64,000 nucleotides of DNA from Gemmatimonadota bacterium (lineage in GTDB: Bacteria > Gemmatimonadota > Gemmatimonadetes > Longimicrobiales > Gaopeijiaceae): assembly GCA_022823225.1 (NCBI GenBank), contig JAJDXM010000024.1, positions 62,001 to 126,000 on the forward strand, given 5' to 3'. Positions 35,157 to 40,877 of this stretch are shown here, piece after piece. Both the position numbers and the translations under genes were made by a program. The notes under the pieces are model-generated. The model was not told where the DNA came from. It searched no databases and worked only from the letters and a program-made list of their open reading frames with translations. Position 1 is the first letter of the stretch. Each line of letters opens with the position of its first letter.

Positions 35157-36896
35157 CTATCGCCTCGGCGCCTCGAATGACAACGCCGCCGCGCGGATGG
35201 GGCGGGCACCTGCCGCACGGTCAGGGCGGCCGCCCGACAGATCCTCCGTGATCGCATGCAAAGTCGCGGCTGCCGACAGCACCACTCCCGGCACCCCGGC
35301 GCCAGGGTGCGTCCCCGCCCCCACCAGGTAGAGGCCCCGCACCTCCTCGCTGCGGTTGTGGGGCCGGAACCACGCGGTCTGGGTCAGCCGGGGCTCGATC
35401 CCGAAGGCGTTTCCGAGCGTCGCGTTGTACTCGGTGGAGAAGTCGTCCGGAGTGAACGCGTGCTGCACCTCGATCGCGTCGGCCAGGCCGTCGAGCCCCC
35501 AGGCCGTAAGGGCCGCGATCACGCGGTCGGCCATCGGCCGCGACTCGCGCCACCATTCGATCCCCGATGCTCCGTTCGGCACGGGCACCAGCACGTAGAT
35601 GCTCTCGCAGCCGGGCGGCGCCATGCTCGGATCGGTCCGGCTCGGCACGTGCAGGTACATGCTGAAATCGTCCGATAGGACCTTGCGGTCGAAGATGTCG
35701 CGCACCAGCCCCCGGTAGCGCGGCCCCAGGATGATCGTGTGATGGGACAGCTGCGGGTACCTGCGGCGCACCCCCAGGTAGAGGAGGAAGCAGCTCATCG
35801 AGTGCGCGATCCGCCCCAGGCGCCGCCGGCTCCAGCGCCGCCGCCGCACGTGGCCCAGGAGTGAACCGTACGTGTGCCCGACGTCCGCGTTGCTGACCAC
35901 GATGTCGGCCGGGAGGAAGGAGGTGCCAGGAGCCATGTAGTCCGTCCGGATGGCACGCGAGCCCGGCGGTGCAGTCCCGTTGTCCGATGTCGGCTCCTGA
36001 GCGCCTGCCGCGCGAACTGTGCGCGCCGCCACCCGCACCCCCCGCACCCGTCCCCCTTGCACCTCGATCCGCTCCGCGGCGGTCCCGGTCAGCACCCTCC
36101 CGCCGATGTCGCGGAAGAGCGCGCCGAACCCCTGCACGAGGCTGTACATCCCGCCCTTCGCATACCAGACGCCGCCCTCCTTCTCCAGGTACGGGATCAT
36201 CAGGAAGATCGAAGGGGCCCTGAAGGGGCTCCCCCCCAGGAAGAGGGGATGGAAGGAGTAGAGGAAGCGGTGCCGGGGGTCGCGGAAGTACCGGCCGACG
36301 AAGCGGGCAACCGGCCTCCAGGCGCCCAGCCGTGCAACCCGGGGCGCGAACGCCGCAATCTTCCCGAGCGAATCGAAGGGCCGCGCGCCGAGCCCTTCGT
36401 GGATCACGGCGTCGTGGATCGGCCGAAGCCGGCGGAAGAACTCCGGCAGTCGCGCCGCGTCCCGGGGGTCGAACCGCGCCATGGCCGACTGCATCCGCGC
36501 CAGGTCGGAGGTGTAGTCGAGGTGGGTGCCGTCGTGGAACCAGACGCGGTAGAAGGGGTCGAGGGGGACGAGCGAGACGTAGTCGCTCAGCCGCCGTCCC
36601 GCGGCCCGGAAGACATCGTCGAGGATCGCCGGCGCGGTGATCAGACTGGGGCCGGTGTCGAAGGTGTACCCCGCGTCGCGGATCTGTCCCGCGCGGCCGC
36701 CCAGCTGGTCCCGCTGTTCGATGAGCGTGGTGGCGATTCCCGAGGCCTGCAGCCGCACCGCTGCGGCCAGCCCTCCAAAGCCGCTGCCGATGACGACCGC
36801 GCTCTGGCGGCCGCCGCTGCCGCCGGGCGCGGCCCCTGGCCGTGGGACGCGCGAACGGTGCCTGGGTGGCCGTGTGACGGCAGCGCTACCCGGCAC
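35157..36896 (-). CDS. crtI: Phytoene desaturase-type carotenoid oxidoreductase
   Basis: 579 residues from GTG 36896, chosen because it overlaps the crtB stop by 11 bases, has GGAG upstream, and the FAD domain begins just after. The FAD fold is VVIGSGFGGLAAAVRLQASG, then the LIEQRDQLGGRAG block and GYTFDTGPSLIT. The CrtI C-terminal signature LYLVGAGTHPGAGVPGVVLSA is present. It desaturates phytoene toward lycopene at the membrane. A proline/glycine-rich insert of about 30 residues interrupts the middle domain (AAGAQEPTSDNGTAPPGS). It is the last enzyme gene of the carotenoid operon. Confidence 0.9.
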   Translation of the reverse strand: MPGSAAVTRPPRHRSRVPRPGAAPGGSGGRQSAVVIGSGFGGLAAAVRLQASGIATTLIEQRDQLGGRAGQIRDAGYTFDTGPSLITAPAILDDVFRAAGRRLSDYVSLVPLDPFYRVWFHDGTHLDYTSDLARMQSAMARFDPRDAARLPEFFRRLRPIHDAVIHEGLGARPFDSLGKIAAFAPRVARLGAWRPVARFVGRYFRDPRHRFLYSFHPLFLGGSPFRAPSIFLMIPYLEKEGGVWYAKGGMYSLVQGFGALFRDIGGRVLTGTAAERIEVQGGRVRGVRVAARTVRAAGAQEPTSDNGTAPPGSRAIRTDYMAPGTSFLPADIVVSNADVGHTYGSLLGHVRRRRWSRRRLGRIAHSMSCFLLYLGVRRRYPQLSHHTIILGPRYRGLVRDIFDRKVLSDDFSMYLHVPSRTDPSMAPPGCESIYVLVPVPNGASGIEWWRESRPMADRVIAALTAWGLDGLADAIEVQHAFTPDDFSTEYNATLGNAFGIEPRLTQTAWFRPHNRSEEVRGLYLVGAGTHPGAGVPGVVLSAAATLHAITEDLSGGRPDRAAGARPIRAAALSFEAPRR

Positions 36897-38946
36897 TGGC
36901 GAACTCCGCGTGCCGAGTGCGGAGCCGCAGTCGCCGGAGCCCCCGGTTTGCCAGAACGACCTTCTCCCTGAGCGAGGTATGGGCCCGCCGGTTGAGGTTG
37001 TCGTAGCCGTTGGCGCGGACCCCGTCCTGAATGCCCCGGTAGACTTGTGCCGCCACCGCGACCGGTCGCTGGAAGAAGGGCGGCAGGTGCGGCATCCCCT
37101 CGCAGGCGGCGGCGTAGGACGAGTCGGCCGCAGCCATGATCTCTTCCAGCAGCGCGATGTAGCCCGCGTCCACGGCACCGCCGGCGTGGGTGCGAGTCTT
37201 CATCGCGGAGAGCGATTCGGGTGTGACCCCGTGCGCGGCCATGCGGTCGGCGGGCAGGTAGATGCGGCCCATCGCCAGGTCCTCGCCCACGTCGCGAACG
37301 ATGTTGGTCAGCTGCATCGCGTGCCCCAGCGCGTGCGCGCGCTTGAGGACCCACGCGTCGCGCACTCCGAAGGCCCGGGTGAGCCACGCGCCCACCACCG
37401 AAGCCACACGGTGGGTGTAGCGGCGCAGCTCTTCCATGGAGGGGTAGTGGTGCGGCTCCACGTCCATTCGCACGCCTTCGATCAGTTCGGAAACCAGATC
37501 GAAGGGAATCCGCTGTCTGCCCATGCCACCCATAACCACATCCGCAAGCGGGATTCCCGTGCGATGCCCCTCATACGCCAGACCACAGATCTCGGCCCAG
37601 ACATCGAGGGTTTCGTGAAGCCGCACCACCAGATCGTCAGACTCGTCCACCAGATCGTCGGTGAAGCGGCAGAATGCGTAGATCTCGCGTACCCGCCTGC
37701 GCTCGTCGGGCGGGAAGAGGAGCGACGCGAAGGAGAAGGTGCGGCTGTTGCGGGCGAAGTACCGGCCCCACTGCGCGGGGGGGCCGAGCGCGAGGGCCCG
37801 GGCGGCGATGCCGGCGGCGGCAGTCGCCTCGGACAGCCGCGGTCTGCCGGCCGCCGGCGGGGGTACGGAGATCGCGGCCGACAACCCCTCGCGTGCGGCT
37901 CTCCGGCAACGGGCCGTCCAGCCATTGACGAGCCCGATGATCTCCGGCCCGGTCCGCAGCGCTTGCAGCCGGTTTACCAGAGCCGAGCGGCGGACTTCGA
38001 GACGGGCCGCGGCCGCTCCGGCCATCGACTCGCCCCTGGCAGGGGTCGTGCCCGTTCGGCCGCCGCCCGCCCGGAAGAACTCCCGGGCCGCGTCTCGCGG
38101 ACTGTGCTCGAACCACTCCCACCCGCGCGCTCCGAGGACGGAGGTCCAGGTGCGGTTGTTGAAGTCCTGAAGCTTCGGCTTGCCGGTACTCTCGGCGGGG
38201 CAGTAGTCGAGGAAGTCGTCGACCAGCTGGTAGAAGGCGCCGAGCTCCACGCCGAGTTCGCGCAGCACCTGCGGCGAGAGCGACACCACCACCTCACCCG
38301 GCTGCCTCCCCACGCGACCGGCGAGCGAAGCCGCCGCCCCGAAGAGGGCGCCGCTCTTCGCGCGCACCACCTCCTCGTAGCGGGCCGCGGGCTCGGGCAC
38401 GGCGGCGAGTTCGCCCTGCAGCTTCTCGCCGCGCACGGTGGCAGCCACCGCGGCGACGAACGCGGCCACGAAGTCGTTCCACCCCGTCATGAGCGCGACC
38501 CGGTAGGAGCCCGTCAGGTACAGGTCACCTGTCAGCAGCGCCGCGCCGGGACCCTTTCGCGCCAGCAGGGTCGCGCCGTCGCGCCGCCCGACGCCGCCAT
38601 CGAGCACATCGTCGTGGTGAAGCGACGCCTCGTGCACCATCTGCACCGCGAGGCACCCGAGCCAGAACCGCTCGCCGATCAGGCCGCGCCGCCCGGGAGG
38701 CACGAACGAGAAGGCGGTCACGGGGCGCAGCAGCTTGCCGCGCAGAGGCGGAACCGCGATCCCGCTCCGCTCTGCCAGCCTCGAGGCGCGCTCCATACCC
38801 GCCTTCACGACAGGCAAGCAGGCGCCCAGGCCCGGTCCGCCGGCACCCGAGACCGGATCGCCCGCGGCCGCGCTCCCCGAGGCCCCGGTTCCCACGGTTG
38901 GCCGCCCGCCCATCGCCGGCACGCTCGTCACCGGCCCGTTACCCAC
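36886..38946 (-). CDS. crtB: Fused polyprenyl diphosphate synthase and phytoene synthase
   Basis: 686 residues holding two enzymes of one pathway. Residues about 45-300 are a trans-polyprenyl (geranylgeranyl) diphosphate synthase: RGKLLRP at 69-75, first aspartate motif DDVLD at 112-116, K197-SGALF, second motif DDFLD at 243-247. Residues about 375-675 are a squalene/phytoene synthase: RTFSFASLLFP, DDLVDE at 430-435, GVRMDVEP, RVASVVGAWLTRAFG and NIVRDVGED. The linker (about 300-370) is proline/alanine rich. The start is GTG 38946, with GGAGG upstream and an 8-base overlap with cruF. Substrate chain length is inferred from the neighbours. Confidence 0.9.
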   Translation of the reverse strand: MGNGPVTSVPAMGGRPTVGTGASGSAAAGDPVSGAGGPGLGACLPVVKAGMERASRLAERSGIAVPPLRGKLLRPVTAFSFVPPGRRGLIGERFWLGCLAVQMVHEASLHHDDVLDGGVGRRDGATLLARKGPGAALLTGDLYLTGSYRVALMTGWNDFVAAFVAAVAATVRGEKLQGELAAVPEPAARYEEVVRAKSGALFGAAASLAGRVGRQPGEVVVSLSPQVLRELGVELGAFYQLVDDFLDYCPAESTGKPKLQDFNNRTWTSVLGARGWEWFEHSPRDAAREFFRAGGGRTGTTPARGESMAGAAAARLEVRRSALVNRLQALRTGPEIIGLVNGWTARCRRAAREGLSAAISVPPPAAGRPRLSEATAAAGIAARALALGPPAQWGRYFARNSRTFSFASLLFPPDERRRVREIYAFCRFTDDLVDESDDLVVRLHETLDVWAEICGLAYEGHRTGIPLADVVMGGMGRQRIPFDLVSELIEGVRMDVEPHHYPSMEELRRYTHRVASVVGAWLTRAFGVRDAWVLKRAHALGHAMQLTNIVRDVGEDLAMGRIYLPADRMAAHGVTPESLSAMKTRTHAGGAVDAGYIALLEEIMAAADSSYAAACEGMPHLPPFFQRPVAVAAQVYRGIQDGVRANGYDNLNRRAHTSLREKVVLANRGLRRLRLRTRHAEFASAG

Positions 38947-39739
38947 CGCCCCACCTCCACTTCACGATCCCGAGGACCCCCAGCGTCAGAACCACCGCCA
39001 GCCAGTACCCGGCGACCATCGTCATCGCGAGCGACAGCGCGAGCACCGTCGCGTAGTAGACCTCCATCAGCCGGGCGGGCACACGGTCCGCCACTGGCCC
39101 GGCCCTGACCGCGTCGAACCCCGCCATGATCAGCACGCCGGTCCCGAACCACCCCGCCAGGTTGACCAGCGGCATCCCGTAGTAGCTTCCCCCGGTCTCC
39201 CACACCCAGTACGGCGACAGGTCGCTCATGGCCGGGTCGAGGCTCAGGTCCCAGGCCGTGAGCAGGAGGGCCCCGAGCGCCCATCCGGCCACTCGGCCGC
39301 CCGCCATCCTGCGCGCCAGCACATACGACGGGAACGCCATCATGAACCAGCTGAAGGGGATCAGCACCGGCACCAGCCCCGCCACGCGGATCCCGAGCAG
39401 CTCGGTGTACCGGTAGGCGCTGAACGGAAAGCCGGTGGCCGTGCCCAGCAACTCCATGCCCAGCGACAGGGTGCCTGCCAAGACAAGTGCCGGGATCCAG
39501 CGCAAGCCCACCCGGACGGTCAGAGACAGAGCCAGCACGGCAAATGCGATCACGATTTGGCCGCGCGCGAAGATCTCGAAGGCCGGCGCATAGAAGCCTC
39601 GCGACGACGGGAACCGCGCGAGGAGCTCGGGGTGTCGGCCGAACGTGGCGAAGCCCGCGACGGTGACGGCCGTGAAGAGACCGAGGACGATCAGGCCCCA
39701 GTTGTCGAGCCGGTTGAAAGCGCGCTCGGACTCACGCAC
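38939..39739 (-). CDS. cruF: CruF-type carotenoid biosynthesis membrane protein
   Basis: 266 residues with seven or so membrane segments, matching the CruF/DUF422 carotenoid 1,2-hydratase family: TGFPFSAYRYTELLG, VPVLIPFSWFMMAFPSYVLARR, TAWDLSLDPAMSDLSPYWVW, GMPLVNLAGWF. CruF adds water across the terminal double bond of lycopene-type ends, leading to hydroxylated, often glycosylated, acyclic carotenoids. Together with crtB and crtI it suggests an acyclic hydroxycarotenoid product; no cyclase is visible. It overlaps the regulator gene upstream and the synthase gene downstream, each by 8 bases. Confidence 0.88.
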   Translation of the reverse strand: MRESERAFNRLDNWGLIVLGLFTAVTVAGFATFGRHPELLARFPSSRGFYAPAFEIFARGQIVIAFAVLALSLTVRVGLRWIPALVLAGTLSLGMELLGTATGFPFSAYRYTELLGIRVAGLVPVLIPFSWFMMAFPSYVLARRMAGGRVAGWALGALLLTAWDLSLDPAMSDLSPYWVWETGGSYYGMPLVNLAGWFGTGVLIMAGFDAVRAGPVADRVPARLMEVYYATVLALSLAMTMVAGYWLAVVLTLGVLGIVKWRWGGG

Positions 39740-40769
39740 GGGACGCGGAGGTCGGCGGGGCCGGGGGGGTGGCCAGGTCCGGGTGCCGATCGAGCCACCG
39801 CCCGAACGCGCTCAGCGAGTCCAGGACCGCGGGGGTTCCGAAGGGCCACTCACATCCGCAGAGATCGACTCCCTGGGCTCCGCCACCCCCAAGGGCCAGC
39901 GAATAGGGTCGGCACCGATCCGCGAGCCGGCCCGCCACGTCCACGAACCGCCGAACGTCCGCGGGCCCGCGGGGTGGAGTGAAGGAGACACACACCAGCG
40001 AAGCCCCGGCCACTTGCTGCGTCGCGACGATCTCGGCCACCGGAAGGCCCGTGCCGAGGTGCTCCGCGCGCCAGCCCCGCTGAACCAGCATCAGGCGAAC
40101 CAGAAGCGATCCCAGGACGTGCTGGTCGGGCTCGACCGTGGCGACGACGGCGGTGGGGCGGGTGGGGGTACGCGCCCCGCCGGCCCGCTCGAGGAGTGCG
40201 TAGATGGTCTCCGAGACCTCCCTGCTCGCGGCGCGTTCGGCCCGAATCGGCAGTTGCCCACGGGCCCATCCGTCTCCCACCCGCTCCATGAATCCCCCGA
40301 AGACGCCGTCGAGGATTCGGGGATCGACAGACCGGGGCGCATGCCCCGGGGACCCTTCCCTCTGCCCGCGCCGCGACGCAACGGCGGCTTCGTCCAACCC
40401 GGTCACATGCCGCAGGAACCGCCCGATGCACCGGGTGCGGCCAGCCTTCAGCCAGTCGATCAGCAGCCTCTGAGCCGGTCCCGGATCTCCGGCGTCGAGG
40501 GCCCGGCCGGCGTGCCAGACCGTTTCCGCATCGAGGCCGAATCCATGAAGGTAGACCGCATGTCCGCGTTCCCGGGCCACGCGCAGCACCAGATCGAGAG
40601 AGATGCGCCGATGCCCCCCGGAGGTGGCGGAAACGCCTCGCTTTCCGGCCTTGGCGGTGGTCCGGCCACCCCCGAACCAGCGCTTCACGGTCGAAGGGTG
40701 GATGCCGATGAGCTCGGCCACGTCGCCCGTAGTCAACGTCGTGGCGTGTTCGCTGGTTACGCCGGCCAA
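39732..40769 (-). CDS. CarH/LitR-like MerR regulator with B12-binding domain
   Basis: 345 residues. A MerR-type winged helix (LTTGDVAELIGIHPSTVKRWF, then GGHRRI at 51-56) is followed by a helical bundle (about 75-190) and a Rossmann B12 domain with D215-Q-H217-V-L-G220 (lower axial histidine) and ALGGGGAQG. CarH proteins are AdoCbl light sensors that repress carotenoid genes in the dark. In the CarH Wx9EH motif W168 and E178 are kept, but the His after Glu is R179 and the residue after Trp is Ala. TTG 40769 has GGAGG 8 bases upstream. It overlaps cruF by 8 bases, so the repressor and its target genes form one operon. Confidence 0.88.
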   Translation of the reverse strand: MAGVTSEHATTLTTGDVAELIGIHPSTVKRWFGGGRTTAKAGKRGVSATSGGHRRISLDLVLRVARERGHAVYLHGFGLDAETVWHAGRALDAGDPGPAQRLLIDWLKAGRTRCIGRFLRHVTGLDEAAVASRRGQREGSPGHAPRSVDPRILDGVFGGFMERVGDGWARGQLPIRAERAASREVSETIYALLERAGGARTPTRPTAVVATVEPDQHVLGSLLVRLMLVQRGWRAEHLGTGLPVAEIVATQQVAGASLVCVSFTPPRGPADVRRFVDVAGRLADRCRPYSLALGGGGAQGVDLCGCEWPFGTPAVLDSLSAFGRWLDRHPDLATPPAPPTSASRA

Positions 40770-40798: not shown

Positions 40799-40830
40799 AT
40801 TATATAGACTATTTCACTTCATAATAGTCT
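40799..40830 (-). promoter_or_regulatory. Promoter and inverted-repeat operator of the carotenoid operon
   Basis: On the minus strand a perfect TATAAT (40804-40799) lies 30 bases before the TTG start of the regulator. Directly upstream is an 8-bp inverted repeat, AGACTATT (40806-40813) and AATAGTCT (40823-40830) with a 9-base gap. It occupies the spacer and -35 region, where CarH/MerR repressors bind. No TTGACA is present, so the -35 may be poor or read by an alternative sigma factor. Confidence 0.65.
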
Positions 40831-40854
40831 GGAATCGTTTATTCTACAAGTAAT

Positions 40855-40877
40855 GATCGGATTTTGAATCACCGATC
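40855..40877. terminator. Inverted repeat, possible terminator of the propeller gene upstream
   Basis: GATCGG at 40855-40860 and CCGATC at 40872-40877, with inner ATT/AAT bases able to extend the stem. It lies between the 3' end of the gene at 41022 and the carotenoid promoter, so it could shield the operon from read-through. There is no long U-tract. Confidence 0.3.

Follow-up and report, generated by a model that had tools for sequence, protein, structure and literature searches.

A CarH-like regulator with a changed cap motif

Can a CarH-like regulator in which the histidine of the adenosylcobalamin (AdoCbl) cap is replaced still read cobalamin and light? The gene that raises this question lies at 39732..40769 on the minus strand of the window (the whole 64,000-nucleotide stretch analysed). 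On translation it gave a single open frame of 345 aa with a TTG start, six bases 5' of which sits GGAGG. The protein has a helix-turn-helix (HTH) region at about residues 11-68, a four-helix cap carrying W168-x9-E178-R179, and a Rossmann B12-binding domain with D215xH217xxG220, S262xT264 and G294G295. The cap reads GDGW168-A169-RGQLPIRA-E178-R179 and the lower-ligand stretch EPD215-QH217-VLG220. In the phmmer alignment with Thermus CarH (5c8a), whose residue numbers are those of the published papers, W168, A169, E178 and R179 fell opposite W131, H132, E141 and H142, and H217 paired with the lower-ligand histidine. The sequence-only reading had described an intact DxHxxG motif at H217, an arginine at 179 that turns Wx9EH into Wx9ER, and an alanine after Trp168 where Thermus CarH has histidine; translation and alignment bore out all three. 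The alignment with CarH/LitR proteins that it had proposed placed no histidine at 169 or 179, and R179 stood opposite H142.

Profile matches to the protein were weak. HTH_17 scored 22.4 bits, below its curated cut-off, PF02310 matched residues 206-283 with 28.9 bits (cut-off 32.1), and the NCBIfam CarH equivalog NF052513 reached 37.1 bits where 400 are demanded. Wx9EH, the mark of CarH (class I LitR), is here W168-x9-E178-R179. The CarH motif D/ExHx2G/P-x41-SxT/V-x22-27-GG is present as D215xH217xxG220-x41-S262xT264, with a gap from S262xT264 to G294G295 of 29 residues, two over the quoted range. Among the SignatureFinder elements of light-responsive cobalamin-binding domains (CBDs), GxxW and GxxxP were found while EH and GxxH were missing, the glycine of GxxH being Pro214. 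CarA is marked by loss of the tryptophan of Wx9EH with EH kept, whereas this regulator has the tryptophan and not the histidine. Class II LitR proteins retain no more of the B12-binding region than its four-helix half, whereas the full B12 motif is present here and the fold match spans residues 79-331.

The cap arginine is fixed in one branch of Gemmatimonadota regulators

We divided the homologue loci that were read into ER-type (Wx9ER) and EH-type (Wx9EH), a split outside which weaker homologues lie. Arginine occupied position 179 in all ER-type Gemmatimonadota homologues read (18 genomes: 13 of the family, G058 with a C-terminal piece, and G162, G270, G279 and G340 from another family of the same class), and histidine did so in all 21 EH-type homologues (20 rows plus the second regulator of G058, identical proteins merged). 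Only these two residues occurred there in the Gemmatimonadota rows read, L050 being too short to be assigned. Those ER-type relatives that have names are Gemmatimonadetes metagenome bins, some labelled Gammaproteobacteria. In a tree of 37 rows, built with column 179 left in and thus slightly circular on this point, all 15 Gemmatimonadota ER rows formed one branch (97/91), and two changes sufficed to explain the cap residue, the second one in Planctomycetes. Because an entire branch of related bacteria shares the swap, R179 is probably a functional variant rather than the mark of a broken copy.

Alignment A2 comprised 14 ER and 17 EH rows and omitted L004, L009, L011, L022, L024, L026, L029 and copies of the same genes. 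W168, E178, H217, G220, S262, G294 and G295 were invariant in all 31 rows, and the lower histidine was retained in all ER-type Gemmatimonadota rows. Eighteen positions, including 179, 121, 183, 184, 241 and 247, were nearly invariant in ER rows and shared no residue with EH rows; position 121 was histidine in 14/14 ER rows. Position 214 was glycine in 17/17 EH rows and proline, serine, asparagine or threonine in ER rows. By counting from H177, position 241 corresponds to D201 of Thermus CarH, which pairs with R176 across the dimer interface. In the excerpt of PMC9304148 an Arg-Asp pair is called crucial. The ER fragment of G058 is the first to branch off and retains Gly at the place of 214 and Asp at that of 241, so that the arginine at 179 seems, from these residues, to have arisen before the changes at 214 and 241.

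Position 169 varied freely, with histidine in one of the 31 A2 rows. Non-histidine residues are thus usual there, and light-responsive relatives have Arg, Gln or Tyr after the tryptophan; CtMerR, with Arg, is light-responsive and its tetramer monomerises (both from passages of PMC11796333), so A169 carries little information. As a sign of altered photochemistry it was rejected, and that part of the earlier argument, which had listed the alanine beside the cap arginine, falls away. The other part stands: the EH change is fixed in the clade and GxxH is lost as well, which makes an altered cobalamin response a fair inference.

Several relatives departed from these patterns. An EH-type regulator (L024) has Asn for the lower axial histidine. 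G058, a genome 77% complete, holds an EH-type and an ER-type regulator, each adjoining its own cruF and crtEB (L149, L150); the double set could be real or the product of a mixed bin. Nine Planctomycetes homologues (L053, L057, L064, L065, L067, L070, L071, L075, L083) combine Wx9ER with replacement of the lower axial histidine by Tyr, or by Ser in L083, so W and E may survive even in proteins whose binding of cobalamin is questionable. In many Phycisphaerae-type relatives Wx9EH is intact and GDPY stands at the lower-ligand place. From these motifs, the Planctomycetes/Phycisphaerae-type branch is possibly cobalamin-free or Tyr-ligated.

The regulator heads a carotenoid operon

The regulator gene is the first of a tight operon, regulator-cruF-crtE/B-crtI, with overlapping genes all on one strand. 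A cruF-like gene of the carotenoid 1,2-hydratase family (38939..39739, minus strand; PF04240) overlaps the end of the regulator gene and adjoins the regulator in relatives as well. It is followed by a crtE-crtB fusion (36886..38946, minus strand) with polyprenyl synthetase (PF00348) and phytoene synthase (PF00494) domains, and by an ORF (35157..37178, minus strand) with a crtI-type phytoene desaturase domain at residues 127-650 (TIGR02734), whose true start is probably nearer 36800.

This linkage to carotenoid genes, a feature of CarH (class I LitR), recurred among relatives. A cruF match was found in 50 of the 121 family genomes. When 49 typed regulator places were paired with cruF places by coordinates, 42 lay within 162 bp of a cruF match, among them all 13 full ER-type family genes and the ER fragment of G058. 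Within the source genus (23 genomes), the seven genomes with an ER-type regulator are exactly the seven with cruF (G000, the source genome, G013, G015, G018, G019, G020 and G023). The order regulator-cruF-crtEB was seen in 11 of the 12 ER loci L033-L044, with crtI next in 10; one of these loci, L042, stops at a contig edge. At L036 the ER-type regulator is accompanied by cruF only, and the next 8 kb held neither crtEB nor crtI. Since ER-type regulators adjoin cruF and the co-occurrence in the genus is exact, control of the operon by the regulator is well supported, and the regulator most likely controls all of regulator-cruF-crtE/B-crtI, its own gene included.

A conserved upstream motif marks a candidate operator

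Alignment of upstream regions pointed to a presumed operon promoter, TTGTAG-N17-TATTAT (40821..40849, minus strand); a consensus promoter scan did not report it and proposed a different one at 40868-40841. The candidate operator CGATCATTACTTGTAGAATAAACG (40836..40859, minus strand), of the form CG-N8-TTG-N9-CG, has its centre on the presumed -35 box. This motif occurred in 16/16 ER upstream regions versus 2/20 EH regions (background 0.029 per 260 nt), figures to be read as descriptive because the pattern was drawn up from the alignment and the count made on those very sequences, which are related. It stood 121-126 bases ahead of a fixed reference point in 15 ER regions and at 185 in L039. A refined version had one exact match in the 4.19-Mb source genome, the site ahead of the regulator, and the loose pattern was not enriched within the window (9 matches versus 19.7 expected).

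We then counted perfect dyads with 6-bp arms, 11-12 intervening bases and CG ends, a count that supersedes a looser one with 8-bp arms; neither the shuffles nor the background correct for kinship of the upstream sequences. Such dyads were present in 5/16 ER regions (0.34 in shuffles), one of the five being a GC-rich repeat elsewhere, in 6/11 EH regions outside one branch (0.27), and in 0/10 within that branch (0.12). Dyads also precede EH-type genes and are therefore not unique to ER regulators. The candidate operator itself is a degenerate dyad with 4/6 arm pairs, and two ER sites have 2/6. The dyad-free EH branch carried 11-bp direct repeats of TGTnnR in 7/10 regions (0.065 in shuffles), by a pattern picked after reading the upstream regions; with the pattern used, the 11-bp direct-repeat operator expected of CarH was found in 0/16 ER regions. 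By eye, an inverted repeat AGACTATT-N9-AATAGTCT was also seen at 40806-40830, overlapping the presumed -10 box; it was not evident in the aligned relatives.

Predicted fold and cobalamin supply

An AlphaFold model of the regulator, built from 31 sequences, had a mean pLDDT of 88. VIA-align gave CtMerR (8jbs) as the best match (Z 17.5, rmsd 3.2, 218 residues), tied with photocobilin 8j2x (Z 17.0, rmsd 2.9, 207 residues), and Thermus CarH was the top Foldseek match. TM-scores by query length against the seven best full-length chains in Foldseek were 0.36-0.47, because domain placement differs. AppA SCHIC domains also matched the model (Z 15.3, rmsd 2.8, 203 residues), so the fold by itself does not settle the ligand.

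A PduO-type adenosyltransferase (PF01923) was found in the source genome and in 109/121 family genomes, and a missing AdoCbl supply was accordingly rejected as the cause of the cap change. Among the B12 proteins of the source genome are one of MetH size, a B12-binding frame of 176 aa and two further frames with a B12 domain, of which one is weak. As for a second canonical CarH in that genome, one CarH-type protein was found and the candidate explanation was dropped; likewise, in each of the 17 ER genomes other than G058 the only strong match besides the regulator was a MetH-sized frame, not another CarH-type protein. Reports on the phylum (PMC10581226, PMC10469786) speak of B12 being imported or salvaged, not synthesised. 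Photolyase-type PF00875, considered as a separate hint of light exposure, showed no link with ER-type regulators, as genomes with and without the regulator both match; in the source genome it scored 26.1 bits, just below the cut-off. In G041, G044, G045, G046, G061 and G084 a PF00875 match lies about 6-12 kb from the EH-type regulator on the same contig.

Proposed mechanism and alternatives

Published residue roles frame what the cap change may mean. The EH motif touches the ribose of the adenosyl group and forms a link across the dimer interface (PMC10979010); in CtMerR, illumination makes E166 and H167 rotate, and water connects the Glu with the cobalt (PMC11796333); and in light-exposed Thermus CarH the upper ligand is the His after the Trp, although H132A mostly remains a tetramer in the light (PMC10442372). 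The sequence-only reading had offered another B12 form, a different light response or B12-independence; on balance the findings lean towards cobalamin binding. We regard cobalamin binding as probable and light sensing through AdoCbl as the likeliest input.

Starting from the operon, its linkage, the residues, the clade and the conserved upstream motif, we infer a regulator that represses the carotenoid operon, and with it its own gene, in the dark, an account whose chances as a whole fall just short of even. As a dimer it would sit on an imperfect dyad of 24 bp that covers the -35 box, and block transcription. Cobalamin, most likely AdoCbl, would be held base-off by H217, with W168 and E178 placed over its upper face and R179 taking the place of the His that in relatives joins the ribose to the dimer partner. 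Light would cleave the Co-C bond, the E178/R179 contact would be lost and the repressor would leave the DNA, without passing through the bis-His state of Thermus CarH. Two of the four SignatureFinder elements are missing in the regulator, which speaks against this account, as do the weakness of the candidate operator as a dyad, the Planctomycetes homologues that keep W and E without the lower His, and the absence of a link with PF00875. A bolder form, a doubtful one, is that this lineage of CarH relatives rebuilt the coupling from adenosyl group to interface around Arg, so that, in place of a head-to-tail tetramer sitting on direct repeats, a two-fold dimer would occupy the -35 dyad and the state of the cobalamin would be sensed by the cap Arg instead of by a His ligand.

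Loss of EH together with GxxH in the main ER clade would also fit a regulator that depends on cobalamin and not on AdoCbl, whose adenosyl pocket is shut by Arg and the loss of Gly, so that it binds OHCbl or another cobalamin and reports supply or redox state rather than light directly. HaAI-2E, whose CBD lacks the signature, bound OHCbl only and is called light-independent in the excerpt of PMC11796333. We consider this unlikely: W168 and E178, adenosyl contacts in relatives, are invariant in 31/31 A2 rows, and the cap motif found in AdoCbl photoreceptors is present in the EH sisters at this operon. The dyad-like ER sites bring to mind CarA, a dimer on inverted repeats around -35 that keeps the lower-ligand motif and yet is B12-independent (excerpt of PMC9304148), so that H217 is no proof of cobalamin dependence; class II LitR sites, also B12-independent, share the 6-N12-6 layout (excerpt of PMC9758184). 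That the operon is repressed by a dimer that needs no B12 and is relieved by some other protein is nevertheless a rather improbable explanation, given that CarA lacks Trp and has EH, the opposite of the regulator, that every ER-type Gemmatimonadota row keeps the lower His, that dyad-like sites accompany EH-type regulators too, and that none of the eight neighbouring proteins scanned was recognisable as a photoreceptor or antirepressor. Least credible is neutral drift, by which R179 is without consequence and the protein an ordinary CarH. Fold and operon are indeed those of CarH-type regulators, but Arg is fixed in every ER-type row while 169 varies freely, and the 18 ER positions noted above share no residue with EH rows.

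Natural Wx9ER regulators are a ready test of what the cap His does and allow one to ask whether AdoCbl binding, response to light and oligomer state are separable; the ER genomes, all but one, have one such regulator each with one operon to control. Such regulators could supply a B12-based optogenetic switch with other properties, and if the coupling was rebuilt around Arg, a cobalamin switch with new chemistry (a different upper ligand, or a response that is reversible or gated by redox).

Comparison with known systems

We found no description of a Wx9ER or H142R CarH in the open-licence literature. CtMerR of Chloracidobacterium thermophilum (8JBS/8JBT) is the best PDB sequence match and has the best VIA Z; it shares the SVKRW...GGHRR HTH and likewise has no His after the Trp, but retains EH and GxxH. 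With CarH/LitR (class I) of Thermus thermophilus the regulator has in common the order of HTH, four-helix cap and Rossmann B12 domain and the carotenoid control; the Thermus protein has Wx9EH, a bis-His light state and a tetramer on 11-bp direct repeats, whereas the ER type has Wx9ER, no His after the Trp and a dyad-like site. The EH-type Gemmatimonadota regulators, which form sister branches, share the gene order regulator-cruF-crtEB and differ in His 179, Gly 214 and Asp/Asn 241; the 11-bp direct repeats upstream in one EH branch resemble published CarH operators. CarA of Myxococcus xanthus also has an altered cap motif, an intact lower-ligand motif and an inverted-repeat operator around -35, but keeps EH without Trp, whereas the regulator keeps Trp and Glu without His. 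Class II LitR of Pseudomonas has the same 6-N12-6 operator layout and no usable B12-binding domain, unlike the regulator with its intact B12 motif. Judged on sequence, then, the regulator is by published defining features neither a CarH (EH and GxxH missing) nor a CarA (Trp kept); it represents a variant of the CarH-type carotenoid repressor that is specific to its clade, and most probably works like CarH and CarA.
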